A stretch of DNA of 52,967 bases from an uncultured bacterium (GTDB lineage Bacteria; Vulcanimicrobiota; CADAWZ01): positions 1 through 52,967 of the forward strand of contig CASEKF010000047.1 in assembly GCA_949288455.1 (NCBI GenBank). Reading direction: 5' to 3'. The stretch's first letter is position 1; every line of letters begins with the position of its first letter. The notes beneath the pieces were generated by a model. It was given only the letters and a program-made list of their open reading frames with translations, was not told the DNA's origin and ran no database searches. The position numbers and the translations under genes were made by a program. Positions 18,779 through 41,127 of the stretch are shown here, piece after piece.

Positions 18779-20572
18779 ATGAGTAAAAAGCAAATTAAAA
18801 TAATGGATACTTCGTTTAGAGACGGATTTCAATCCGTTTACGGAGCCAGAGTCTTTACTAAAGATTTCCTTCCTGCGCTAAGAGCCGCAAAGGAAGCCGG
18901 TTTAAAACATTTTGAAGTCGGCGGCGGAGCCAGATTCCAAGCTCCCATTTTTTACTGCAACGAAAATGCGTTCGACATGATGGATACGATAAGAAAAGAA
19001 GTCGGGCCAGACATAGAGCTGCAAACGTTAGCAAGAGGCGTGAACGTCGTAGGTCTAGAATCGCAGCCTCGCGATATTATAAATCTCCATGCTAAATTAT
19101 TTAAAAAACATGGTATGACTACGATTAGAAATTTCGACGCGTTAAATGACGTCGACAATTTAATCTATTCCGGCCAATGTATAAAAAACAACGGTTTAAA
19201 GCACGAAGTAACTATAACGATGATGGATTTGCCCATAGGCTGTAAAGGAGCGCATGACGCCGCTTTTTACAAAAAAATTCTGGAGAATATACTGGAAGCC
19301 GAAATACCGTTTGATACGCTGTGCTTTAAAGACGCTTCGGGAACTTCGCATCCAAGAAAAGTCTACGAAACGGTAAAAATGGCTAGGGAAATACTTGGAA
19401 AAAAGGCGGTTATAAGATTCCATTCTCATGAAACCGCCGGAACCGGCTTAGCTTCATACCTTTCGGCTTTGGAAGGAGGAGCCAACGCTATTGACCTTGC
19501 GATGAAGCCTGTTTCGGGAGGAACGTCGCAGCCTGATATCGTTTCGATGTGGCATGCTTTAAGAGACACGGAATACGTTCTTGGAATTGATATAGAGAAA
19601 ATTATGATAGCGGAAGAAATCTTTAAAGATTGTATGAAAGATTATTTTCTACCGCCCGAAGCCGCAGACGTCAATCCAATGATTATACAATCCCCTCTTC
19701 CGGGCGGAGCTTTAACCGCTAATACTCAAATGATGAGAGACAACGGAACCATGGACAGATTTCCGGAAGTAGTCAAAGCGATGAAAGAAGTCGTAGAAAA
19801 AGGAGGATTCGCAACTTCGGTGACCCCCGTTTCTCAATTTTATTTCCAGCAAGCATATTCTAACGTAATGTTAGGCCCTTGGAAAAAGATTACCGAAGGA
19901 TACGGCAAAATGGCCCTAGGCTACTTTGGCAAGACTCCCTGCGCTCCTGATCCCGAAGTAGTAAAATTAGCTCAAGAACAACTTAATTTAGAGCCTACTT
20001 CAGAAAAAGTAATAGACTTAAACGATAAAGACGAAACTAAGGGAATAAAAGCCGCCACCGCGACGCTTCAAAAAGCAGGGCTGGAAACTACCGAAGAAAA
20101 TATATTCATCGCGGCCGCTTGCAAAGAAAAAGGCATTGATTTTCTGCTGGGAAAAGGCAAAATAGGAGTTAGAAAAAAAGATAAAAACAAAGCGAATACT
20201 TCCGGCGAACCTTTAAAAACGGATAAGTACGCCGTCACCGTAAACGGGAAAACCTATACGGTTAAATTGGAAGGCGAAAAAGCCGTGATTAACGGAAAAA
20301 CTTACGAAGTTTCCGTAAAGGCGGGAGAATCGCAAACGACTCAAAATCAGGCTAAAGAAGAAAAATCAATATCGGCTAAATTATCCGGATCGTTAAAGCA
20401 GATTTTAGTAAAAGAAGGCGATCACATAAAAGAAAACGAGACGGTAGCTATTATAGAAGCTATGAAAATGGATATGGAAATTCCGTCTCCTTTCGAAGGA
20501 ACAATTGCGTCGATCAAAGCGGCCGTCGGAGATCAAATAACATCCGGTCAAGTTTTAATGACAATAAGGTAG
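18779..20572 (+). CDS. oadA: Oxaloacetate decarboxylase alpha subunit, biotin-dependent
   Basis: A 597-aa protein. An N-terminal carboxyltransferase TIM barrel begins with DTSFRDGFQS and contains FKDASGT and RFHSHETAG metal/substrate motifs. A conserved PYC/OadA helical domain follows (about 310-470), then a linker and a C-terminal biotinyl domain with EAMKM, biotin on Lys563. It transfers CO2 from oxaloacetate to biotin in the cytoplasm for release by the beta subunit. The first motif differs from the more common DTTLRDAHQS, but the barrel is otherwise complete. The gene order G-A-B, with a 16-nt gap to oadB, supports oxaloacetate specificity; a related acyl-CoA decarboxylase is less likely. 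A biotin ligase gene is at 46505. Confidence 0.92.
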   Translation: MSKKQIKIMDTSFRDGFQSVYGARVFTKDFLPALRAAKEAGLKHFEVGGGARFQAPIFYCNENAFDMMDTIRKEVGPDIELQTLARGVNVVGLESQPRDIINLHAKLFKKHGMTTIRNFDALNDVDNLIYSGQCIKNNGLKHEVTITMMDLPIGCKGAHDAAFYKKILENILEAEIPFDTLCFKDASGTSHPRKVYETVKMAREILGKKAVIRFHSHETAGTGLASYLSALEGGANAIDLAMKPVSGGTSQPDIVSMWHALRDTEYVLGIDIEKIMIAEEIFKDCMKDYFLPPEAADVNPMIIQSPLPGGALTANTQMMRDNGTMDRFPEVVKAMKEVVEKGGFATSVTPVSQFYFQQAYSNVMLGPWKKITEGYGKMALGYFGKTPCAPDPEVVKLAQEQLNLEPTSEKVIDLNDKDETKGIKAATATLQKAGLETTEENIFIAAACKEKGIDFLLGKGKIGVRKKDKNKANTSGEPLKTDKYAVTVNGKTYTVKLEGEKAVINGKTYEVSVKAGESQTTQNQAKEEKSISAKLSGSLKQILVKEGDHIKENETVAIIEAMKMDMEIPSPFEGTIASIKAAVGDQITSGQVLMTIR

Positions 20573-20588
20573 AAAATAAGAGGCAACC

Positions 20589-21785
20589 ATGAATTTTGAC
20601 GAATTATTAGTAAAATTGACTGCGTTAAACGAAAGCACAGGATATTTTCATATTATTAAACCGACTCAGCCGGGTTTAAACGGAATAGAGCAATTTCTTA
20701 ATCAGTTCGGCGTTATAATAATGTTTGCCGTCTGTATAGCGCTGCTATATCTTGCGATAAAAAAACAATACGAACCTCTGCTATTGCTTCCGATAGGTTT
20801 TGGAGGGCTATTAGCCAATATTCCTCTTATAGATATGGCTCAAGAAGGAGGCTTTCTCCATCAAATTTATGTTATGGGAATAGAATCTGGCCTTTTTCCG
20901 TTATTTATCTTCATGGGAGTAGGCGCAATGACTGATTTCGGACCGCTAATCGCTAATCCAAAAACGGCTCTTTTAGGAGGAGCGGCTCAATTCGGCATTT
21001 TCGGAGCTCTGCTCGGAGCGCTCGCTTTAGGCACGTACGCAGGATTAGGGTTTGATTTAAAAGACGCGGCGTCTATAGGCATAATAGGAGGCGCAGACGG
21101 TCCTACGTCCATATTCGTCACAAGCAAATTGTCTCCTGACTTACTGGGAGCTATAGCGGTAGCCGCATATTCTTATATGGCCTTAGTTCCTATAATACAG
21201 CCTCCGATAATGAAACTGCTTACGACTGAAAAAGAACGCAAAATAGAAATGGTTCAGCTAAGAGAAGTGTCAAAAACAGAAAAAATCGTATTTCCGCTTT
21301 TAGTCCTCTTTATCTGCGCCATATTCTTACCTGACGCGACTCCTTTGATTGGATCTTTAACCTTCGGAAATCTGGCAAGAGAATGCGGAGTAGTCGATAG
21401 ACTTTCCAAAACGTTGCAAAATGAATTTATCAATATCGTAACTATTCTTTTAGGACTTTCAGTAGGCTCAAAACTGTCCGCGGAACAATTTCTTACCGTA
21501 CAAACGTTAGGAATATTATTTCTAGGACTATTTGCTTTCGTCTTAGCTACGGCTTCCGGAGTTATATTTGCAAAAATAATGAATCTGGTATCAAAGACAA
21601 AAATCAATCCTCTAATCGGCGCGGCCGGAGTATCGGCGGTTCCAATGGCAGCCAGAGTAGTCAATAAGGTCGGACAAGAAAGTAATCCCCAGAATTTCCT
21701 TTTAATGCACGCCATGGGCCCTAACGTATCAGGAGTAATAGGTTCGGCATTAGCGGCAGGAGTATTGATAGCTCTTTGCAAATAA
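20589..21785 (+). CDS. oadB: Na+-translocating decarboxylase beta subunit
   Basis: A 398-aa integral membrane protein with about nine to eleven hydrophobic segments and family motifs: [39 protein letters not shown] and [13 protein letters not shown]. The beta subunit decarboxylates carboxybiotin and couples this to export of Na+. The GADGPT motif holds the Asp implicated in Na+ binding in the Klebsiella enzyme. It directly follows oadA. OadB and GcdB (glutaconyl-CoA) proteins are close relatives; the pairing with this oadA decides the name. Confidence 0.92.
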
Positions 21786-21810
21786 AAATACGCTTATTAA
21801 ATTTTTAATC

Positions 21811-21816
21811 TATAAT
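21811..21816 (+). promoter_or_regulatory. Possible -10 element of pckA
   Basis: TATAAT about 62 nt before the pckA ATG, after the oadB stop. No good -35 at 16-18 nt. pckA could also be read through from oadGAB because no terminator is visible between them. Confidence 0.35.
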
Positions 21817-21877
21817 CAAAAAGCTTGTATTACTCAACGCATCTTTACACTAAATCTAACTAGAAAGGACACTTACA

Positions 21878-23521
21878 ATGAGCGCAATTGAATTTTATAC
21901 AAATCAACAAGAACTAAAAAAAATCATGTCTGCGGCCAGAGCGACTATAACCGCGCCTTTTTTTGGCAACAATGTAGAACATGTAAAATCTGTAGCGGAA
22001 GCTTATAAATTGGCCCTTCGCAGTCCCGGAACCATCGAACTTACCGGAATGCCCGTATATATGCCTGAAAAAATAGGTTTGCCAAAAGGAGCCAATCAGC
22101 TTTTATTCAACGACGGCTCCGTAGTCGGACGCTGCGCGGCGGCCAGAAAAATCGTAGGAGAGCCCGGATGCGATCTAAAAGAATTGCTTCCGATAATAAG
22201 AGAAGCGGCATATGCCTCAAGATATAAACTTCTATATAAAACGGAAGCAATAGTCGGTTTAGAACAAGATTTTATGATAAAAGCTCACCTTCTAATACCG
22301 GCCGGCTTTGAGAATATAATGTATTCGTGGCTTTTAAATTTCCAATATGTCAACGAAGAATATGCCAATATGTATGAAAATTCCAGAGCTATTTCAGAAG
22401 GAGAAATTTTCGTATTTTCCGATCCTGACTGGTCTCACCCTGATTTTCCATATGGATTAACATTCTTTGATCCGGAACATAACGTAGCCGCTATACTTGG
22501 AATGAGATATTTTGGAGAACATAAAAAAGGCACTTTAACTTTAGCATGGGGATGCGCGGCAAGAAACGGATACGCTTCTTGTCATGGAGGAATGAAACGT
22601 TATAACCTTCGCGACGGCAAATCATTCCAAGCGGCAGTATTCGGACTTTCAGGTTCCGGAAAATCAACGATAACTCATGCCAAACATGGAGGAAAATACG
22701 ATATAACGGTTCTGCATGACGACGCGTTTATAATTAATATTCATGATAAATATTCCATCGCCTTAGAACCGGCCTATTTTGATAAAACCGCGGATTATCC
22801 AATGGAATGCGAAGACAATAAATATATTGTGACTCAGCAAAATAACGGAGCGATTCAAAAAGAAGACGGAAAAGTATACTCGGTTACCGAAGATATAAGA
22901 AACGGAAACGGAAGAGCCGTCAAATCAAGATTATGGTCTCCAAACAGAGTAGATAGAATAAACGAACCGATCAACGCAATATTCTGGCTTATGAAAGACC
23001 CTACCATGCCTCCTTGCGTAAAACTCTCAGGAGCCGCTCTGGGGAGCGCAATGGGAGCTACTTTAGCGACGAAAAGAAGCTCTGCGGAAAGACTTGCATG
23101 CGGCGTTGATCCTAACGCCCTGGTAGTTGAGCCTTATGCTAATCCGTTCAGAGTGTATCCTCTTAAAACAGACTACGAAAGATTCAAAAAATTGATAGAA
23201 GACGGCGTAGATTGCTATATTTTAAATACCGGAGAATTTATGGGGAAAAAAGTAGAGCCTAAACATACTCTCGGCATAATAGAATCTATAGTAGAAGGCA
23301 AAGCCGTATTTGAAAAATGGGGCAATTTCAGCGATATGGAAATTATTAAAGTAGAAGGTTTTGACGCTTCGTTTGACAATAAAGAATACGCCGAACAGTT
23401 TTCAAAGAGAATGCAAGACAGAATAGCTTTCGTAAAGTCAAGAGAAACTGAAAAAGGCGGTAAAGACGCTCTTCCGCAAGACGCTTTAGACGCGCTTGAA
23501 GCGGTAATGAGACAAATTTAA
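21878..23521 (+). CDS. pckA: Phosphoenolpyruvate carboxykinase (ATP)
   Basis: A 547-aa cytoplasmic enzyme of the ATP-type PEPCK family. Visible motifs are the kinase P-loop FGLSGSGKSTI (about residues 256-266), the metal-binding LHDDAFIIN just after, and a C-terminal nucleotide-binding part. It interconverts oxaloacetate plus ATP and PEP plus CO2 plus ADP. Next to oadGAB and in a fermenter, the PEP-carboxylating, ATP-forming direction is likely (inference). AAAGGA is 8 nt upstream of the ATG. The gene ends at a strong hairpin terminator. Confidence 0.93.
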   Translation: MSAIEFYTNQQELKKIMSAARATITAPFFGNNVEHVKSVAEAYKLALRSPGTIELTGMPVYMPEKIGLPKGANQLLFNDGSVVGRCAAARKIVGEPGCDLKELLPIIREAAYASRYKLLYKTEAIVGLEQDFMIKAHLLIPAGFENIMYSWLLNFQYVNEEYANMYENSRAISEGEIFVFSDPDWSHPDFPYGLTFFDPEHNVAAILGMRYFGEHKKGTLTLAWGCAARNGYASCHGGMKRYNLRDGKSFQAAVFGLSGSGKSTITHAKHGGKYDITVLHDDAFIINIHDKYSIALEPAYFDKTADYPMECEDNKYIVTQQNNGAIQKEDGKVYSVTEDIRNGNGRAVKSRLWSPNRVDRINEPINAIFWLMKDPTMPPCVKLSGAALGSAMGATLATKRSSAERLACGVDPNALVVEPYANPFRVYPLKTDYERFKKLIEDGVDCYILNTGEFMGKKVEPKHTLGIIESIVEGKAVFEKWGNFSDMEIIKVEGFDASFDNKEYAEQFSKRMQDRIAFVKSRETEKGGKDALPQDALDALEAVMRQI

Positions 23522-23604: not shown

Positions 23605-23806
23605 ATGCCTCGCGAAATAATGAAACGGCATTCGCCTCTATCAAATCGAAATTAGGACGACTCCAAGGCATAAATATTGCGAATACGTTAATTTTTTTTT
23701 ATGAACGCGTATTCGCCGCTTCTTCATCATATCTCAGTTCACAACGTTTGCATTAAATCCGGCGAATGCTGACGCTAGCTGTCAAATCTTAATACTTTTC
23801 ACAAAT

Positions 23807-23868
23807 AAAAAAACTACGAAATATAAGCTAAAATATAATATTTAACTTCAGATTTTCGCAGTTTTTTT
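23807..23868. terminator. Long imperfect hairpin terminator of adhE (bidirectional)
   Basis: AAAAAAACTACGAAA (23807-23821) pairs with TTTCGCAGTTTTTTT (23854-23868), one mismatch, with partial pairing of the A/T-rich interior. T runs occur on both strands, so it can stop the adhE transcript and readthrough from pckA. Confidence 0.7.
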
Positions 23869-23888
23869 ATTGTTTTATTTTATTAAAA

Positions 23889-26504
23889 CTAAACGACTCC
23901 GTTAAAAGCGTCTATATATATTTTTCTTATTTCCGACATCAAAGGATAAGAAGGATTAGTTCCGGTGCATTGATCGTCGAACGCAAGTTCCGTAAGTTCG
24001 TCCAGCTTAGCATAGAAAGCCTGCTCGCTTACTCCTGCGTCTTTTATCGACATAGGAAGATTAAGGACTTTTTTCAGTTTGTTAATTTCTTCAAGCAAAA
24101 GCTCTATCTTCTCGTCGTCAGTATGTTCTTTATCGGTTATCTTCAGCTCGTCTATAATCTGACCCAATTTTTCCTTAACGTTAGGATATCTGTACTGCGG
24201 AAAAGCGCATTGTTTTACCGGTCTTTCGGTAGCGTTGTATTTAATAACCTGGCTAAACAGAAGCGCATTCGCAATTCCATGAGGAATATTGAAAGCGGCT
24301 CCCAATTTATGCGCCATAGAATGACAAACGCCGAGAAAAGCGTTGGCGAAAGCCATTCCCGCAATAGTCGAAGCGTAGTGCATTTTTTCCCTGGCTACCG
24401 GATCGTCTTTCCCCTTCTCGTAAGATCTGGGCAGGTATCTAAAAATAAGCTTTATGGCTTCAAGGGAATTCGAATTTGTAAAATTCGTAGCCATAGAAGA
24501 GATATAAGCTTCTACGGCATGCACTAGAGCGTCAAATCCGCTCGCAGCGCAAAGTCCTTTAGGCATGGAATCCACAAAATTAGGATCTATAATAGCCATA
24601 TTGGGAGTCAACGCATAATCGGCAATAGCATATTTAACATGAGTCTCGTCTTCCGTAATAATAGAGAACGGAGTTACTTCGGAACCTGTTCCCGAAGTCG
24701 TAGGAATAGCGACCAGCTGAGCTTTTTTACCTAATTCGGGAAGCGAACAAATTCTTTTTCTGATATCCATAAAGCGCATGGATATATCTTCAAAATTAGT
24801 TTCGGGATGCTCATACATTAACCAAATAATTTTAGCCGCGTCAATCGGAGAACCGCCTCCGAGAGCGATTAAAACGTCCGGCTCATAAGGTCTCACTACA
24901 TTGAGAGCGTCTCTAATAGTAGAAAGAGTGGGATCAGGTTTAACGTCGAAAAATATCTGGAAATCCACGTTTATTTCCTCAAGCACGTTAGTCACGTTAT
25001 AAACCGTTCCGGAATTGAAAAGATATCTGTCGGTTATAATAAAAGCGCGCTTTTTCCCTTTTAATTCTCTAAGAGCCAAATCAACCGATCCTCTCTTAAA
25101 ATAAACTTTGGGCGGAATTCTAAACCACAGCATATTTTCTCTCCTCTCGGCTACGGTCTTATAATTAAGCAGATGTTTTACGCCGACATTTTCGCTAACC
25201 GAATTGCCTCCCCAAGAACCGCAGCCCAAAGTAAGCGAAGGTTCCAGCCTAAAATTATACAAATCGCCAATACCGCCGTGAGAAGACGGAGAATTAACGA
25301 GAATTCGTCCCGTATGGAGTTTATTTCCAAAATATTCTATTCTATCTTGTTTTGTAGGTTCGGTATAAAGAACGGAGGAATGCCCGGCGCCTCCAAGCTC
25401 GACGAGATGATAAGCGATATCTACGGCCTGATAAAAATCATCAGCTTTGTAAAGAGCCAAAACAGGAGACAATTTTTCATGCGCAAATTCTTCTTCGATC
25501 GATACGTCGGTAACTTCGCCTATAAGAATTTTAGTGTTCTCCGGAACTTCTATGCCTGCCATAGAAGCGATAAAACAAGCGCTCTGACCGACTATTTTAG
25601 GATTGACGCTCCCGTTTATAATAACCGTTTTCCCTACTTTTTCCTTTTCTTCGGGACTAAGTATATAAGCTCCGCGATAAGCGAATTCTTTTCGTACTGC
25701 GTCATATACGTCTTTTACCGCTATAACCGCCTGTTCGGAAGCGCATATCATACCGTTGTCAAAAGTCTTTGAAAGAATAACGGAAGATACTGCCGTCTTT
25801 ATATCCGCAGTCTCGTCTATAACGGCCGGAACGTTTCCGGATCCTACGCCAAGAGCGGGCTTCCCGGAAGAATACGCCGCCTTAACCATTCCCGGACCTC
25901 CGGTGGCAAGAATAGCGTCTACAAGAGGATGCTTCATAAGCATATTGGACAATTCAATGGAAGGCTCGTCTATCCAACCTATAATATTTTTAGGAGCCCC
26001 GGCTTTAACTGCGGCTTCCAATACGACTCTGGCTGCGGCAATAGTAGAATTTTTAGCTCTGGGATGAGGCGAAAAAATTATGGCGTTCCTTGTTTTAAGA
26101 GCGATAAGCGATTTAAAAATCGCCGTAGACGTAGGATTAGTAGTAGGAACAATTCCGGCTATAACGCCAAGAGGCTCCGCTATTATCTTAGTGCCGTTCG
26201 TTTTATCTTCCGATATTACCCCGCAAGTCTTAGCGTTTTTATGCTTATTGTAGATATATTCGGAAGCGAAATGATTTTTAATCACCTTATCCTCAACTAC
26301 GCCCATTCCGGTATCTTCTACGGCCATTTTAGCAAGAGGAATACGAGCTTTATTTGCCGCTATGCTGGCCGCCTTAAAAATAGCGTCGACTTTTTCCTGA
26401 GAGAAACCGGCATATATCTGCTGGGCTTTTTTTACGCTTATTATCAATTCTTCCAAATGTTCCGTAGTAAGAACAACGTCAGATTTTCTTTCTATTTCGT
26501 TCAT
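23889..26504 (-). CDS. adhE: Bifunctional acetaldehyde/alcohol dehydrogenase
   Basis: An 871-aa protein, the usual AdhE length. The N-terminal CoA-acylating aldehyde dehydrogenase (about 1-440) shows IVPTTNPTSTAIF, the GVGSGNVPAVID loop and the catalytic Cys in NGMICASEQ. The C-terminal iron-dependent alcohol dehydrogenase shows GGGSPIDAAK, FDALVHAVEAY and the metal-binding GVCHSMAHKLG and IPHGIANA histidines. It reduces acetyl-CoA through acetaldehyde to ethanol with two NADH and commonly forms cytoplasmic filaments (spirosomes). Its ATG is preceded by AAGGGG and lies only 13 nt after the hydrogenase stop, placing it as the last gene of the hydrogenase operon. Confidence 0.97.
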   Translation of the reverse strand: MNEIERKSDVVLTTEHLEELIISVKKAQQIYAGFSQEKVDAIFKAASIAANKARIPLAKMAVEDTGMGVVEDKVIKNHFASEYIYNKHKNAKTCGVISEDKTNGTKIIAEPLGVIAGIVPTTNPTSTAIFKSLIALKTRNAIIFSPHPRAKNSTIAAARVVLEAAVKAGAPKNIIGWIDEPSIELSNMLMKHPLVDAILATGGPGMVKAAYSSGKPALGVGSGNVPAVIDETADIKTAVSSVILSKTFDNGMICASEQAVIAVKDVYDAVRKEFAYRGAYILSPEEKEKVGKTVIINGSVNPKIVGQSACFIASMAGIEVPENTKILIGEVTDVSIEEEFAHEKLSPVLALYKADDFYQAVDIAYHLVELGGAGHSSVLYTEPTKQDRIEYFGNKLHTGRILVNSPSSHGGIGDLYNFRLEPSLTLGCGSWGGNSVSENVGVKHLLNYKTVAERRENMLWFRIPPKVYFKRGSVDLALRELKGKKRAFIITDRYLFNSGTVYNVTNVLEEINVDFQIFFDVKPDPTLSTIRDALNVVRPYEPDVLIALGGGSPIDAAKIIWLMYEHPETNFEDISMRFMDIRKRICSLPELGKKAQLVAIPTTSGTGSEVTPFSIITEDETHVKYAIADYALTPNMAIIDPNFVDSMPKGLCAASGFDALVHAVEAYISSMATNFTNSNSLEAIKLIFRYLPRSYEKGKDDPVAREKMHYASTIAGMAFANAFLGVCHSMAHKLGAAFNIPHGIANALLFSQVIKYNATERPVKQCAFPQYRYPNVKEKLGQIIDELKITDKEHTDDEKIELLLEEINKLKKVLNLPMSIKDAGVSEQAFYAKLDELTELAFDDQCTGTNPSYPLMSEIRKIYIDAFNGVV

Positions 26505-26517
26505 AACAATACCCCTT

Positions 26518-27981
26518 CTATTCTATTTCCAAAATATCTCTTCCGGCATCCGCGTAAGAACCTACTTCCTTAAACGACGTTTTAACCGAATTTATAACGG
26601 CATTTCCCGATATGCATCCTCCGTTGCAGGACATAACCTCAATCAAATTGCCGGAAGGACAGACGCCGTCTTTTGCGTATCGTCTCAATTCTCTAATACT
26701 TTGTTTATTAAGCCCTTCTATCAGAACGGGTTTCAGATCTTTAGCTTTATCTCCCAGAACCGCTTTAACCGCGTCGGCTACGCCCCCTAAAACCGGAAAT
26801 TTTCTACCCTGTTTCGAAGACTCCAAAGCGAATTCAGTTTCGGCGCATTTCCCTACCTGAATATTAAAAGCGATAAATAAAGCCCCCATTTCCTCAAACG
26901 TCAAAACGTAATCCACGTTATCGTTGTCCGAAGCTTCTTTTCTTTTCGATACGCAAGGGCTAAAAAATACCGTGACCGCGTCGGGATATTGGCGTTTTAC
27001 CATCTCGGCGGTATAGTAAAGAGGAGTTTTAGTTTCCGAAACGTGAGACGACATTTCAGGCATATGCAATTTTACAAGCTGATTATAAGCCGAACAACAG
27101 GAAGTCGTCATAAATTTATCTCCTCGTTCCATACGTTCGAGGTAATCCTTGGCTTCGTTTTTCGAAGTGACGTCGGCTCCAAGAGCGACTTCCCAAACGT
27201 CAAAAAATCCTATTTTTCTGAGAGCCGTGTTAAGCTGCTTCAAAGAACAAGGAAATTGCCCGGCCGCTGCGGGCGCGAGCATAGCTATCACTTTAAATCC
27301 GAGTTTCATTTTAGTAAGAACGTCTATAATCTGACTTTTTTCATGAACTGCCCCAAAAGGACATGCCGCGACGCATTTGCCGCATGTTATGCATTTGTCA
27401 AAATCAATTTTTGCATGGCCTGAAGGAGCTTTAGTTATAGCGTCTACCGGGCAGGCGTTCTCGCAAGGGACTATTCTTTTTACGATAGCTTGATAAGGAC
27501 AGGCTTTTATACACATTCCGCATTGTTTGCATTTTTCGGGATCGATAAACGATTTGCCGTTGACAAACTTAATCGCCGAAAATTTGCATGTATTCAAACA
27601 TGGCCTGGCTACGCATCCCTGACATAATTCCGTAACGTAAACGGCGTTAGGAAGACATCCCTGACAAGCCGATTCCAAAACGGTCAGCACCTCTTTATCG
27701 GGTTTATCCCGTTTTTGAGCCACTCTAACATAAGCTTCAATAGGAGTCCTCTCGTTATCGTTCTCAAGAGCTACGCCAAGTCCGGCCATAACTCTATTTC
27801 TTATAGCCGCCCTTTCTTTATATACGCAGCACCGATAGGTGACTTCACATCCTTTAGGGCGCATATCAAAAGGGATTAATCGCGCGTTCTCCTCAAAATC
27901 GTCGGTATAAAAAGCCGTTATAAGACGAGCTAAAATTTCTCGTTTCAATCTAAGAGCGTCGTTAGAGATATGCATATTCAT
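26518..27981 (-). CDS. Monomeric [FeFe]-hydrogenase, group B-like
   Basis: A 487-aa protein. A Cys-rich N-terminus (CQGC, CVARPC, CKFSAI) leads into 4Fe-4S ferredoxin motifs CKQCGMCIKACP (about 151-161) and CITCGKCVAACP (about 197-208). The H-cluster domain follows with all three loops: TTSCCSAY (proton-transfer Cys295 and ligand Cys296), SPCVSKRKE (Cys343) and VMSCNGGCISG (Cys452, Cys456). The intact proton-transfer Cys predicts a catalytic enzyme that evolves or takes up H2 with reduced ferredoxin. The extra Cys clusters and short length fit group B monomeric enzymes, which remain poorly characterised. Its ATG overlaps the upstream ferredoxin-like stop by 4 nt. Confidence 0.9.
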   Translation of the reverse strand: MNMHISNDALRLKREILARLITAFYTDDFEENARLIPFDMRPKGCEVTYRCCVYKERAAIRNRVMAGLGVALENDNERTPIEAYVRVAQKRDKPDKEVLTVLESACQGCLPNAVYVTELCQGCVARPCLNTCKFSAIKFVNGKSFIDPEKCKQCGMCIKACPYQAIVKRIVPCENACPVDAITKAPSGHAKIDFDKCITCGKCVAACPFGAVHEKSQIIDVLTKMKLGFKVIAMLAPAAAGQFPCSLKQLNTALRKIGFFDVWEVALGADVTSKNEAKDYLERMERGDKFMTTSCCSAYNQLVKLHMPEMSSHVSETKTPLYYTAEMVKRQYPDAVTVFFSPCVSKRKEASDNDNVDYVLTFEEMGALFIAFNIQVGKCAETEFALESSKQGRKFPVLGGVADAVKAVLGDKAKDLKPVLIEGLNKQSIRELRRYAKDGVCPSGNLIEVMSCNGGCISGNAVINSVKTSFKEVGSYADAGRDILEIE

Positions 27982-28244
27982 TCCGCAAGCTTTCTTTCTA
28001 TCATCTTTAAAACTTTGTCGATGGTAGCCTCTTTGATAACTTCGTCGTTAACCTTGACATAAGGAGCTTTTGAGAACTTCCAATCGATTGAACAAAGCCC
28101 CAGGCATGGAACTCCCGACACTTCGACGTCATCGCCATAACGCTTTGGAACCGTGTCTATCAATTCTTGAAGATTAGAAGATCCCATTACGAAACAAGTC
28201 GTTCCGAGACATACCTGAACATTTACTTTTTTTAAGCCTTCCAT
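27978..28244 (-). CDS. Thioredoxin-like [2Fe-2S] ferredoxin
   Basis: An 88-aa protein with the four-cysteine pattern of NuoE/HndA-type thioredoxin-fold [2Fe-2S] proteins: CLGTTC near the N-terminus and CLGLC about 34 residues later. It probably passes electrons to or from the adjacent hydrogenase, or relays the HydS signal; both are inferences. AAAGGA is 7 nt before the ATG. It overlaps the group B-like hydrogenase gene by 4 nt. It resembles the 81-aa protein at 31150-31395 in the same operon, so the operon holds two such ferredoxins. Confidence 0.85.
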   Translation of the reverse strand: MEGLKKVNVQVCLGTTCFVMGSSNLQELIDTVPKRYGDDVEVSGVPCLGLCSIDWKFSKAPYVKVNDEVIKEATIDKVLKMIERKLAE

Positions 28245-28285
28245 GAATATTTCCTTTCTTACGCTTAAGAATTATAAAGCGGCGC

Positions 28286-29446
28286 TTACATATACTGCAA
28301 ATTCGCCTTTTTAAAATATTTTTTTTCTAAAATAACGGCTATCTTTTTTACTACGTTTTTACGTATTTCGATTTCCACGGGCAAAGTAGGATCATAATGA
28401 GCCTGATTCAGCTTAGCTCCTATCATAAAGTCTATCACGTCGCTCTCCAACAGAAAATTTGCCAGTTTTGCGGCGGCGTTATCGGAATCGGGAATACCCG
28501 ACTCAAGATACTCTAAAACTCTGGTTAAAGTTAAAATGCCTTCCGTGACTAAATCTACTCCTTCCATATAGGAACAAGCCGGCAAAGCGTCGATACTGAT
28601 AAGTCTGCCCGTCTTTACGGGGATGCCAAGCTCTCTCGACAATATATTAGCCGTAGTGCCTCCGCATATAGCTCGTTTGCCTTTGAAATTTTTAAAGATG
28701 GCGGCGTATTCTCCGTCGGTTTCCTGGCGATACGGAGGACCGGTAAACACAAGGGCTTTTCTGGGATCTCTAAAATAGAGAACGCATGCCGACATATCGT
28801 CCTTGGGTTTTCTGTCGGGCTCGGCTAATTTTGCCTGAGTCAATATATATTTTGCCAATTCATAACTGGAAACGGAGATATCGTCTCTTAATTTAGATTT
28901 AATAATCTCTATAAGTCCGTCTCTTCTCAATCCTAATTTAAGAATCCCGCCTCCTAAACCGGACTGCGTTATCCCGTCGGAACAAAAAATCAACCTGTCT
29001 CCGATTTTAGGATCTATTTTATAAACCTTCATATGTCTATTCTTAAAAGTAACAGAATCTATCACGGTATATTCAGGCTTCAGAACATCCATCCCCCTGA
29101 TCCATACAAATTCGGGATTGCCTTCTTCAACTATTTTCACAAGGCCTTCTTCATTGGCGTCTATAGCGGAAAAAGTCGAATAACTTATATTTCTGACTCT
29201 GCATACCGGAAGGGAATTCATTATAATTTCAGCGGCTTCTTTTATCTTTATATCATCTTCTATAAACCTTAAAAGCATAACAGCCGTCATACACGATAAA
29301 ATGTTAGCCTTAATTCCGCTTCCAAGTCCGTCCGATAAAACGGCAATCAACCTTCCTTCGGCAGGATAACGTCTGGATATGAAATAATCGCCGTAAGCGT
29401 TTTGATTATATTTCTTTTCCTGTCTGCAGTCTATGTCGATAAACAC
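28286..29446 (-). CDS. SpoIIE-type PP2C serine/threonine phosphatase
   Basis: A 386-aa protein. The N-terminal 230 residues have the PP2C/SpoIIE motifs: LSDGLGSG (metal-binding Asp), FCSDGITQSG and PKDDMSACVL. The C-terminal 150 residues form a second domain (GTTANILSRELG, IEIRKNVVKKIA). Phosphatases of this exact two-part type are found beside sensory group C [FeFe]-hydrogenases and are thought to relay the H2 signal. The GTG start is supported by AAGGAGG 4 nt upstream. It is 9 nt downstream of hydS. The target phosphoprotein is not in the window. Confidence 0.85.
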   Translation of the reverse strand: MFIDIDCRQEKKYNQNAYGDYFISRRYPAEGRLIAVLSDGLGSGIKANILSCMTAVMLLRFIEDDIKIKEAAEIIMNSLPVCRVRNISYSTFSAIDANEEGLVKIVEEGNPEFVWIRGMDVLKPEYTVIDSVTFKNRHMKVYKIDPKIGDRLIFCSDGITQSGLGGGILKLGLRRDGLIEIIKSKLRDDISVSSYELAKYILTQAKLAEPDRKPKDDMSACVLYFRDPRKALVFTGPPYRQETDGEYAAIFKNFKGKRAICGGTTANILSRELGIPVKTGRLISIDALPACSYMEGVDLVTEGILTLTRVLEYLESGIPDSDNAAAKLANFLLESDVIDFMIGAKLNQAHYDPTLPVEIEIRKNVVKKIAVILEKKYFKKANLQYM

Positions 29447-29455
29447 GCAGCCTCC

Positions 29456-31153
29456 TTATTTATCGTAGCCGTCGGCAATAGAGCTAAGAAGAGTCTCGGT
29501 TTCAACCATATGCTCTCCCAATAGACATGCTATCTCCTGGACTATCGATATATTTTTAGATATTACTTCATGCGCTTTGCGAGCAATTTTTTCACGATTC
29601 ATTTCAATTTTTGTTACGTCCGTAATAATAGCCCCGGCAGCCTTATCTTTTTCCAAAAGAAAAGCCGTAATATCATATAAACGATCTCCTATCGCGTAGT
29701 GCTCTTTATGAGTCTCTCGTCCGGATTTAAAAACTGTTCTAAAAATATCCGTAAAATCTACTATCCTATCTAAAGAAGCGCCTGAAATGCCTTCTGATTC
29801 AAAAATCTCGGACATTTCTCCGGCAAACATTCTTATAAACGCGTTATTAGCTTCCAATATTCTAAAATCAGCGTCTATCATGACGACGGCGGAAGGCATG
29901 CATCTTATCATTACCGAAGCTTTCTGAAGAGCCGTTTTGCGCATATAAGAAACGCACATGGAGATTTCCGCCTCTCCGTCTATAATAGCTTTGGCAAGTC
30001 CTCTGCAAGTATTATATCCGCATCCTCCGCAATTTAATTCGTCCTCTGGAGTATATTTTCCAAGTTTTTTCAAAGTCTCAGACAACATATCGAAAGAATA
30101 AGTCTTAATCTCTTTTTTTATCGGCGAATAAGTCATATCGACGACAACCGAAGGAATTTTTGGAATTTCGTTTCTCTTTTTTTCGTTAACGATAACTTCA
30201 GCCGCCAAACTTATAGCCGATTTTGCGGAAGAGACGCACGGTCCCGCGATACAACCCCCTTCGCAAGCTAAAGCTTCCACGAAAAGAATCTGCTCGCAAT
30301 CGTCGGGACGCATCGTTGAAAGCGCATGCTCGAAAGCTTTCAAGGAAGCTATTTCAATAAGAGTAACGTTATCCTTCACCCCTATCCTGTTTATAGTTCT
30401 ATTCATTCCTCCGTCGATAGGGTAAAGAGAACCTTCGTTAGCCACGCAAGGCTCGAAAAAGTAATCTGCAGGATCTCTTACTGGCTGAATCTCCACAAAC
30501 TCGTCTTCCATCCATAACTTTAATTCTTCAAACGTTAACGAAGCGTCTATCAAGTCTTTATTATCGTCAGATTCGTTCTTTTTCCCAACGCATGGACCTA
30601 TAAAAACAACCGCTATATTTTCTCCAAACATCTTTTTTAACATCTTAGCATGAGTTAAAGCCGGAGAAGCTATAGGAGTTATATTTTCCGCAAATTCAGG
30701 TTTATACTGCCTGATATAATTAACGATAACTGGACAGGCGCTGGAAATAAACAACCCCCTTTCGGCTCCGTTCAAAATTTCAGCCGTCTTAATAGACACT
30801 TCCTGAGCTCCTAAAGCCGTCTCGCTCACATGTCCAAAACCAAGTTTTTTCAAAGCCGCGATAATTTCCGAATCCGAACAGCTAAAAGCCGCATGCCAAC
30901 TGGGAGCTAAAGAAACGTAAATATCCTTTTTTGCAATAATTAAATTTTTAGCTATGTCTATATCGGAGCGAACCCTTTTGGCGTTGCATGGGCAAACTTT
31001 AACGCAATTTCCGCAAGAAATACACTTTTCCCGGATAACCGAAGCATGTCCATTTTCCACCTTAATAGCCTTAACCGGACATTCCCTAATGCACTTATAG
31101 CAATCATGGCATTCGTTTATAAGCGTATAGACAGGCTGTGAGGTCGTACTCAT
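29456..31153 (-). CDS. hydS: Sensory [FeFe]-hydrogenase, group C (HydS), with PAS domain
   Basis: A 565-aa protein. Two 4Fe-4S motifs are at about residues 15-25 and 44-54. The H-cluster domain has loops SSACPVIV (about 137-144), GPCVGKKNE (Cys188) and LACEGGCIAG (Cys297, Cys301). The Cys that shuttles protons in catalytic enzymes is Ala139, a hallmark of HydS proteins, so it senses rather than turns over H2 efficiently. Then come a four-Cys NCGGCGYNTC cluster domain (375-400), a PAS domain (about 415-510) and a short coiled C-terminus. Its start overlaps the ferredoxin stop by 4 nt. It resembles hydrogen-sensing hydrogenases of Ruminococcus albus and the hfs locus of Thermoanaerobacterium. 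Confidence 0.92.
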   Translation of the reverse strand: MSTTSQPVYTLINECHDCYKCIRECPVKAIKVENGHASVIREKCISCGNCVKVCPCNAKRVRSDIDIAKNLIIAKKDIYVSLAPSWHAAFSCSDSEIIAALKKLGFGHVSETALGAQEVSIKTAEILNGAERGLFISSACPVIVNYIRQYKPEFAENITPIASPALTHAKMLKKMFGENIAVVFIGPCVGKKNESDDNKDLIDASLTFEELKLWMEDEFVEIQPVRDPADYFFEPCVANEGSLYPIDGGMNRTINRIGVKDNVTLIEIASLKAFEHALSTMRPDDCEQILFVEALACEGGCIAGPCVSSAKSAISLAAEVIVNEKKRNEIPKIPSVVVDMTYSPIKKEIKTYSFDMLSETLKKLGKYTPEDELNCGGCGYNTCRGLAKAIIDGEAEISMCVSYMRKTALQKASVMIRCMPSAVVMIDADFRILEANNAFIRMFAGEMSEIFESEGISGASLDRIVDFTDIFRTVFKSGRETHKEHYAIGDRLYDITAFLLEKDKAAGAIITDVTKIEMNREKIARKAHEVISKNISIVQEIACLLGEHMVETETLLSSIADGYDK

Positions 31154-31395
31154 TTTACGTCTATCCCTTCAAGTATTTTTTTTAATTTGAATATATCGAC
31201 ATTATCATACGCCTTTCCGTCTATGATAACGTTAGGCCCTGAAGCGCATTTATTTGAACATCTGTCTCCAACGAGTTCAATATCTATGTCAGGATTGTTG
31301 TCCTTTATATAAGTCTCAAGAAATTCTAAATTTTCAGCGTTGCCCCTGGCAAAACAAGCGCTTCCCATACATAAAGTTATAGTAATCTTCTTCAT
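31150..31395 (-). CDS. Thioredoxin-like [2Fe-2S] ferredoxin, first gene of the hydrogenase operon
   Basis: An 81-aa protein with CMGSAC near the N-terminus and CSNKC about 36 residues later, the four ligands of the NuoE/HndA C-terminal-like [2Fe-2S] fold. It probably works with HydS, whose gene it overlaps by 4 nt (ATGA). It is the first gene after the promoter and operator elements at 31414-31497. An AAAGG about 12 nt upstream of the ATG is the likely ribosome-binding site. Confidence 0.87.
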   Translation of the reverse strand: MKKITITLCMGSACFARGNAENLEFLETYIKDNNPDIDIELVGDRCSNKCASGPNVIIDGKAYDNVDIFKLKKILEGIDVK

Positions 31396-31413
31396 AAATT
31401 TATAACTGCCTTT

Positions 31414-31427
31414 ATTGTATATACAAT
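31414..31427. promoter_or_regulatory. Perfect 14-bp palindrome in the hydrogenase operon leader
   Basis: ATTGTATATACAAT is fully self-complementary and lies between the Rex-like site and the first start codon. It is a candidate operator for a dimeric regulator, identity unknown. Confidence 0.5.
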
Positions 31428-31438
31428 TGTCTTATATT

Positions 31439-31456
31439 TTGTGATTGTTATCACGA
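31439..31456. promoter_or_regulatory. Rex-like operator
   Basis: TTGTGA-N6-TCACGA, one mismatch from the TTGTGA-N6-TCACAA pattern of Rex, the NADH/NAD+-sensing repressor of fermentative genes. It sits just downstream of the predicted transcription start, the right place for repression. A CRP/FNR-family protein could also fit the TGTGA-N6-TCACG core. Confidence 0.6.
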
Positions 31457-31468
31457 TTAATTTACTTT

Positions 31469-31497
31469 ATTTTATACTATAAAAATTAAAATGTCAA
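31469..31497 (-). promoter_or_regulatory. Sigma70-type promoter of the hydrogenase/adhE operon
   Basis: Minus strand: TTGACA (31497-31492), 17-nt spacer, TAAAAT (31474-31469). The -35 is perfect and the -10 is four to five of six. A TATAAA at 15-nt spacing overlaps it. Confidence 0.7.
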
Positions 31498-32811
31498 TAT
31501 AAAATCCATCTTGTCGACAGAAGGAAATAAAGCTCAACTCACCTTTATTTAAGCGGTATAGCATATAAAGCGGAACAATCGGCTTCGACCTCAAACAAGC
31601 AAAAAAACTTACTTCCGCGCTTATTGGCAAGCATAAAAACCATACGACACAAGCGATATAATTTTCACGAATTAAGCGCTATCTATAAAAATTAAAATCA
31701 CATAAGGCAGAATTAGCGTTTTGCCAAACAATATCGCAAAGAAAACTCAAGTTAACGACTAACCGCTTTAACTATAAACTATGGGAACAGCGTAATCAAC
31801 TTCGTTTTTACTCGATAAGAGGCGACATCCGGCCCATTATCGAAACAATGCATCTCGAAGGAGAGAACGCCTGCTTCCCCAATACAATATATATACGTCA
31901 AAGTTGCAAAAACGGCTGCGCTCATCGGCGTAAAGAAAGCAACCGGTTTCTTAAATCGTCCTGAGTTACGTCCTTCTTTTCAATCGCCAAGCATAATTCC
32001 GACAGAAATAAGCCATAAACCGATGATTTTAGGCAAATTCATTGCTTAGCGAAAAAATAAACGCTAAAAGAATCGTTAACGCTATGTCGGTTAAACAGCT
32101 AGAAAAGACGTTATCGAGACCGCCGATCGTATATGTCAAGGCTACAATGCCCGTCCTGCCGCCAAGCCTGACAAAATTAACAACAAGATTGTTTTGCCAA
32201 CCAGAGCGATTCTGCGCATCGACGATAAAAAGACCAAAAGCAAAAACAGAGAGAAGCTAAAACCGTAAGAAACAGCCCCGCCCACAGCGGGATGCGTTTA
32301 CCTGAGACCGGATCGCGCTACAATAGAAGTTATGCCGACAAAAACAAATAAGCGCAGCTAATGCAATCTACATAACAATCTGCCTAAAAAAACGTTTATA
32401 ACTTTGTCAGAGAAACTGCAAAATCGCATAAATTACAAAACAATACAAAAATAATTAAGCACGCGAAAACATGAAAAAAAATATCTTATGCGTATCCCAA
32501 AAAGGCGGGAACTCAGCTCTTCTTCGCGTCAAATTTATAAACGCGGCAAAGCTGAACGGACAGGAACTTGAAAAAAATTTGCGTTAAATGCAGTCAGGAC
32601 GCGCGTAGTAATCGCAATGGAAAAACCGGCGCGCTTCTATTCTATCAACCTCTCCCAGATTAAAGCGATCGCTGCCAGTTCGGCGAATCGTCCGGCATAT
32701 AACGCTTAAAAGAAACTAAGTTCCTTGGAGGGCTACCTAAACTATATTGAAATCCGAAGTTCTTGGCGTCTCTAAATATCAGTATCAACAAATGAAAACC
32801 GAAGCTTATTT
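31498..32811. other. 1.3-kb gene-poor, probably decayed region
   Basis: Lies between the hydrogenase promoter and the cytidylate-kinase-like gene. Short hydrophobic protein-like stretches appear on the minus strand in shifting frames (about 31780-32330 and about 32520-32760), each broken by stops, suggesting remnants of one or more membrane-protein genes. No RNA gene, mobile element or repeat was recognised. Confidence 0.5.
31779..32042 (-). pseudogene. Fragment of a membrane-protein gene, interrupted by TGA
   Basis: One frame of 88 codons starts with ATG at 32042 and ends with TAG at 31779, with an in-frame TGA at 31980-31982. It encodes two hydrophobic stretches (IIGLWLISVGIML and AAVFATLTYIYCIGEAG). 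A second hydrophobic frame (containing DIALTILLAFIF) overlaps its start from upstream, as expected after a frameshift. No ribosome-binding site is seen. The family is not identified. Confidence 0.4.
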
Positions 32812-41033: not shown

Positions 41034-41127
41034 TGGCGGAAGTAAAAAGGAGTCGAACCTTCCGAAGCGCTGAACGCTCCCAAGCCGATTTGAAGTCGGA
41101 GGAAAACGCCGGTTTTCTTTTACTTCC
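41034..41127 (-). tRNA. selC: tRNA-Sec (anticodon UCA)
   Basis: A 94-nt tRNA on the minus strand. The acceptor begins GGAAGTAAA and pairs with TTTACTTCC, followed by G and an encoded CCA. The D-arm is a 6-bp stem (GAAAAC, CGGC loop, GTTTTC), diagnostic of tRNA-Sec. The anticodon loop CTTCAAA sits on a CCGA/TCGG stem, giving UCA. A long variable arm and a TTCGACT T-loop follow. It predicts that the organism reads UGA as selenocysteine; selA, selB and selD are not in this window. The 5' end overlaps the stop of the upstream coding sequence by 8 nt. Confidence 0.93.

Follow-up and report, generated by a model that had tools for sequence, protein, structure and literature searches.

A HydS–hydrogenase–adhE operon with a predicted Rex operator in an uncultured bacterium of the Vulcanimicrobiota

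Introduction

Interspecies hydrogen transfer has long posed the question of how gut fermenters choose between acetate plus H2 and ethanol when H2 accumulates. The matter has been studied in no more than a few cultured Bacillota. The closest described system is an eight-gene cluster of Ruminococcus albus 7, the expression of which is 111-fold lower when a partner keeps H2 low and for which H2 sensing has been proposed (Greening and colleagues, PMC6776011). On the plasmid pRUMAL01, the cluster has the order rex-adhE-kinase-2Fe2S-2Fe2S-hydS-spoIIE-hydA2, where hydA2 encodes a group B hydrogenase. In Thermoanaerobacterium saccharolyticum, adhE expression and ethanol rise when the HydS homologue hfsB is deleted (PMC5707799). 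Here, we describe an operon of an uncultured bacterium of the Vulcanimicrobiota (contig CASEKF010000047.1), in which genes for HydS, a phosphatase, a hydrogenase and AdhE lie at 23889-31395 on the minus strand of the analyzed stretch of 52,967 bases, referred to below as the window. An initial sequence-only reading of this DNA had put forward the adhE link as a new point, which it is not, as the cluster of R. albus 7, an organism cited in that reading, already holds adhE. The gene set and order, their conservation, the protein families, the operator and terminator candidates and the recurrence of the adhE link were computed. The results lead us to consider it probable that this is a fermentation operon for high H2 and high NADH, in which Rex would switch adhE and the hydrogenase in response to NADH, and HydS and the phosphatase would provide a direct H2 input.

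Organization of the operon

The six open reading frames are closely spaced and all on the minus strand. They are given here in the order of transcription, together with the flanking signals.

31469-31497, minus strand: promoter-like site TTGACA-17-TAAAAT at the head of the operon, 11/12 consensus
31439-31456, no strand assigned: Rex-type operator TCGTGATAACAATCACAA (reverse complement TTGTGATTGTTATCACGA), 11/12 against TTGTGA-N6-TCACAA
31150-31395, minus strand: small thioredoxin-like [2Fe-2S] protein (NuoE type), 81 aa (PF01257, 2.6e-09)
29456-31153, minus strand: HydS, sensory-type [FeFe] hydrogenase, 565 aa (PF02906, 1e-41; PF04060; PF13188)
28286-29446, minus strand: SpoIIE/PP2C-type serine phosphatase, 386 aa, GTG start (PF07228, 4.9e-10)
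27978-28244, minus strand: second thioredoxin-like [2Fe-2S] protein, 88 aa (PF01257, 7e-09)
26518-27981, minus strand: group B monomeric [FeFe] hydrogenase, 487 aa (TIGR04105, 522.8 bits)
23889-26504, minus strand: adhE, bifunctional acetaldehyde-CoA/alcohol dehydrogenase, 871 aa (NF010378, 1382 bits)
23804-23871, minus strand: terminator-like hairpin ending in a T run, directly after adhE, -26.6 kcal/mol

Consecutive genes overlap by 4 nt, then lie 9 nt and 41 nt apart, overlap again by 4 nt and are finally separated by 13 nt. These coordinates agree with the sequence-only reading, which had described six genes in one direction with overlaps or gaps of at most about 40 nt (the largest is 41 nt) and adhE 13 nt behind the hydrogenase gene. 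Its identification of HydS, the SpoIIE phosphatase, the group B hydrogenase and adhE was also correct, whereas its two "ferredoxins" are both NuoE-type proteins of PF01257. The hydrogenase lies above the TIGR04105 cut-off of 450 bits and belongs to group B by this measure. AdhE consists of fused Aldedh and Fe-ADH domains and exceeds the NF010378 cut-off of 951 bits, as expected of the bifunctional enzyme. The genome has one full-length adhE, the sole ethanol-making gene detected, and also encodes the H-cluster maturase HydG.

A promoter or terminator between the hydrogenase gene and adhE, which according to the sequence-only reading would refute their linkage if expression were independent, was sought in the sequence and not found. 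The 13 nt at this junction are too short for a terminator, and the Shine-Dalgarno sequence of adhE (AGAAGGGG) overlaps the stop codon of the hydrogenase gene. The hairpin behind adhE has a z-score of -4.98, and none of 200 shuffles was equally good. With overlaps or gaps of at most 41 nt, a terminator after adhE and none inside, the six genes appear as one unit, and their assignment to one operon is well supported. The promoter-like site, whose first base (31497) bounds the region considered here, is the best of 30 matches in the 13 kb scanned; since the overall number of matches equals that in shuffles, it is a candidate only. The one internal promoter-like site worth noting in the hydrogenase gene (27111-27082, 10/12) was rejected because it is no better than shuffles give.

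Rex-type operator

The operator starts 12 nt after the -10 element and ends 43 nt before the first start codon. This position between the promoter and the first gene is one at which a bound repressor would block transcription. Sites matching TTGTGA-N6-TCACAA at the 11/12 level occur only twice in the 2.1 Mb genome, 31439-31456 being one of them. We also used an operator matrix trained only on sites before Gastranaerophilales adhE genes, from which the window sequence was excluded. A scan of the whole window with this matrix gave 17.1 bits for the operator and 7.0 bits for the next best site, leaving a single strong site, and random sequence gives about 4 matches per 10 Mb at that level. The palindrome was present at 10-12/12 upstream of adhE in 26 of 36 loci (almost all from Gastranaerophilales, with a few represented twice), compared with about one expected from shuffles. 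The Rex site of Staphylococcus aureus is TTGTGAAW4TTCACAA (PMC2883068), and the palindrome upstream of the adhE genes is, judged by its sequence, of the Rex operator type.

The operator is also found elsewhere. One of two genomes of a sister genus carries two sites at the corresponding operon (17.2 and 16.6 bits). Another operon of the present genome (L107 7790-12762, G000:C42) encodes an electron-bifurcating HydCBA, ends in rex and has a strong Rex-type operator upstream; this single site of 18.8 bits lies 42 nt before the first gene. Both the operator and rex (on C42, next to hydA), the two elements expected of a Rex regulon, are thus present in the genome. When a Rex operator was sought before the 80 adhE-less Gastranaerophilales modules, none reached 14 bits, the best being 8.2 bits. 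Related genomes are not independent samples, and the pairing of operator and adhE is therefore best regarded as reflecting one or two events. No TTGTGA-type operator was found upstream of the R. albus-type clusters (R. albus and the genomes G001 and G024), and for this reason we do not extend the Rex argument to them. In Caldicellulosiruptor, hydG and hydrogenase operons are under Rex (PMC6391272). It is strongly suggested from these sequence data that the operon in the window is under Rex control, with binding of Rex to the operator as a prediction.

Gene order in related genomes and phylogeny

The sequence-only reading had proposed a comparison of gene order in related genomes. The six-gene order is kept exactly in the two sister-genus genomes (AdhE 85% and HydS 69% identical), which makes the cluster more than a chance arrangement. 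G001 (locus L086) represents a third genus of this family; its cluster is of the R. albus type, with adhE and the kinase in front, and its kinase is 64% identical to that of R. albus, which suggests a transfer between phyla. In the more distant genome G024, a short contig carries a partial cluster in which the hydrogenase gene comes after rex-adhE-kinase. No homologue of the APH-type kinase present in the R. albus cluster was found in the genome studied here, in those of the sister genus or among the Gastranaerophilales tested. A host among the Elusimicrobiota, guessed from composition, was rejected, and a paper on that group (PMC11257099) describes no cluster of this kind.

The closest relatives of the module outside these genomes are those of Gastranaerophilales, in which HydS is 60-65% identical. 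The window AdhE is 67-79% identical to Gastranaerophilales AdhE and about 60% identical to the R. albus type. Within the module, HydS and the phosphatase vary least, the latter being 64-74% identical. At 80 Gastranaerophilales loci with the conserved five-gene module, no true adhE was present in the available flanks. Among 146 Gastranaerophilales genomes, HydS was found in 98 and AdhE in 128, and the two were adjacent in seven (L162-L168), with the order adhE-rex-2Fe2S-hydS-spoIIE-2Fe2S-hydrogenase; L166 gave no hydrogenase match in the stretch examined.

The HydS tree groups the seven adhE-linked Gastranaerophilales sequences in one clade (100/98) and those of the window and the sister genus in another, with moderate support (88/74); R. 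albus and G001 fall into a third (100/99). At least four changes of the adhE-linked state are needed on this tree, and the link therefore recurs. In the AdhE tree, the sequences of the window group form a clade (100/100) within a set to which Gastranaerophilales also belong, and those of the R. albus type are separate (100/100). The AdhE sequences of the seven linked genomes do not form a single clade and occupy several places, which suggests repeated exchange. The package of sensor, hydrogenase and adhE has apparently been assembled more than once.

HydS and the phosphatase

HydS is composed of a 2x4Fe-4S region, the H-cluster domain (Fe_hyd_lg_C), an FeS domain and a PAS domain (PAS_8). The PAS match is weak and above the cut-off (PF13188, residues 415-444, 23.1 bits against 21.8). 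The four Fe-ligand cysteines of the H-cluster domain are invariant across 49 HydS sequences. At the positions of CpI C299, M353 and M497, of which C299 is the proton-relay cysteine, the window HydS has alanine, glycine and leucine, respectively, with the ligand cysteines kept. Alteration at all three positions is described as typical of sensory [FeFe] enzymes (PMC10055695), and the protein has the sequence features of a sensory (group C type) [FeFe] hydrogenase. HydS is predicted to sense H2.

In the phosphatase, the PP2C metal-binding residues D39, D157, D216 and D217 are invariant, as expected of a SpoIIE/PP2C enzyme. Residues ~1-230 match the folds of RsbX, SpoIIE and RsbU; these matches cover the PP2C part only, and the C-terminal ~150 residues have no match among solved folds. 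The C-terminal domain (28286-28760 of the window, residues ~230-386) is highly conserved and contains a GGTTAN motif, which is GGTTS in the R. albus protein. A target of the phosphatase was sought in the operon, and neither a DNA-binding protein nor a substrate was found inside or adjoining it. The genome encodes anti-sigma-type kinases/ATPases (HATPase_c_2) elsewhere, and nothing ties them to the phosphatase.

Surroundings of the operon

No RNA family matches the 1.3-kb intergenic stretch upstream of the operon (31498-32811), which is also free of notable repeats and of open frames longer than 91 codons. Convergent with the operon, 18779-23521 encode an oadA-like carboxyltransferase/biotin protein, a likely oadB-type decarboxylase subunit and a PEP carboxykinase-like protein, so that an oxaloacetate/PEP node adjoins the fermentation operon. 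A selenocysteine tRNA gene lies at 41034-41127 on the minus strand.

Discussion

The sequence-only reading had tied adhE to H2 sensing. Comparative evidence supports this as a functional link, which recurs in R. albus, a clade of Gastranaerophilales and the present family, but control of adhE by the sensor does not follow, because sharing an operon means co-expression only. The best-supported direct control is that by NADH, owing to the Rex-type operator at the head of the operon. While partners keep H2 low, the electron-bifurcating HydABC encoded elsewhere in the genome would reoxidize NADH, and NAD+-bound Rex on the operator behind the promoter would hold the operon off, the products of the cell being acetate and H2. 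In organisms with bifurcating hydrogenases, rising H2 stalls HydABC and NADH goes up. The accumulating NADH would then cause Rex to leave the operator. With the operon on, AdhE would burn NADH to ethanol, the group B hydrogenase would still discharge reduced ferredoxin, and HydS together with the PP2C-type phosphatase would give a direct reading of H2. We infer Rex as the binding protein, H2 sensing by HydS, a relay through the phosphatase and the sign of the signal; control of the operon by HydS is likewise suggested by homology. We further propose, as a tentative possibility, that a two-input switch arose by operator capture: adhE may have moved behind an H2-sensing module and an adhE-type Rex operator may have been placed before it, with one transcript subject both to NADH, by way of Rex, and to H2, by way of HydS and the phosphatase, a design that would have been reached more than once in unrelated fermenters.

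Several observations weigh against the proposed Rex/NADH switch with H2 input. The operator of the second sister-genus genome is weaker (10/12, 9.9 bits), and that of the adhE-rex-hydS clade of Gastranaerophilales is partly degenerate. By analogy with the hfsB deletion, HydS may act negatively. The palindrome also fits a CRP/FNR half-site: the core GTGA-N6-TCAC is common to CRP sites, and two CRP-type regulators are encoded. That the operator belongs to such a regulator instead of Rex is nevertheless quite improbable, since the same motif stands before Gastranaerophilales adhE genes, some of them directly followed by rex, and also before hydCBA-rex, which is the pattern of Rex autoregulation.

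HydS and the phosphatase might themselves be the main controllers, with H2 binding at HydS altering the phosphorylation state of an anti-sigma system or transcription factor that drives adhE and the hydrogenase gene, and with Rex being secondary or irrelevant. Control of this kind has been proposed for R. albus, whose cluster responds strongly to H2 (PMC6776011), and it would suit both the constancy of these two proteins and the presence of HATPase_c_2 proteins. We regard it as unlikely here, because the operon has a Rex-type operator at its head and offers no DNA-binding protein or phosphatase substrate, and because the APH-type kinase is absent from this and all tested genomes with a window-type module. 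Lacking a homologue of that kinase, the window system cannot take over the kinase-based relay proposed for R. albus. Could adhE simply be a chance neighbor, inserted behind the hydrogenase gene with no functional tie to H2 sensing? The 91 of 98 HydS-bearing Gastranaerophilales genomes without adjacent adhE would be in line with this, but the link recurs on several branches in different orders and is kept in two genera here, and among modules of this family the adhE-type operator stands at the operon head only where adhE is in the operon; such an accident is very improbable. The rearranged package in other bacterial groups, with a Rex-type operator where adhE joins, offers a natural comparative test of the link and separates two formerly merged questions, NADH control and H2 control.

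Comparison with known systems

The R. albus 7 cluster and the window operon have in common two 2Fe-2S proteins, a PAS-bearing HydS, a SpoIIE phosphatase, a group B hydrogenase (both HydA2 and the window enzyme pass TIGR04105) and adhE. They differ in that adhE is on the 5' side in R. albus and at the 3' end in the window, and in that rex and the APH-type kinase are inside the R. albus cluster, whereas the window genome has rex elsewhere and no such kinase. AdhE is 60% identical between the two and the other proteins at most 38%, and the C299 position of HydS is cysteine in R. albus and alanine in the window. The module of the seven Gastranaerophilales genomes is closer, with proteins of the same subfamilies (HydS 56-61%, AdhE 69-78% identical) and its five genes in equal order; there, adhE and rex precede the module, whereas the window has adhE at the far end and the genome has rex as part of the hydCBA operon.

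The hfsABCD genes of T. saccharolyticum follow the same principle by description, as hfsB encodes a sensor homologue with a PAS domain and has a tie to ethanol formation (PMC5707799), but the adhE gene studied there is outside the four hfs genes. TmHydS, the sensory [FeFe] hydrogenase of Thermotoga maritima, shares with the window HydS the kept Fe-ligand cysteine and changed catalytic second-sphere residues, of which the C299 position, alanine in both, was compared by name. The passages on TmHydS that were consulted mention no adhE neighbor. A tie between H2 sensing and adhE is therefore prior art, its sign differing between systems; new here are a different gene order, a different lineage and evidence of repeated assembly.

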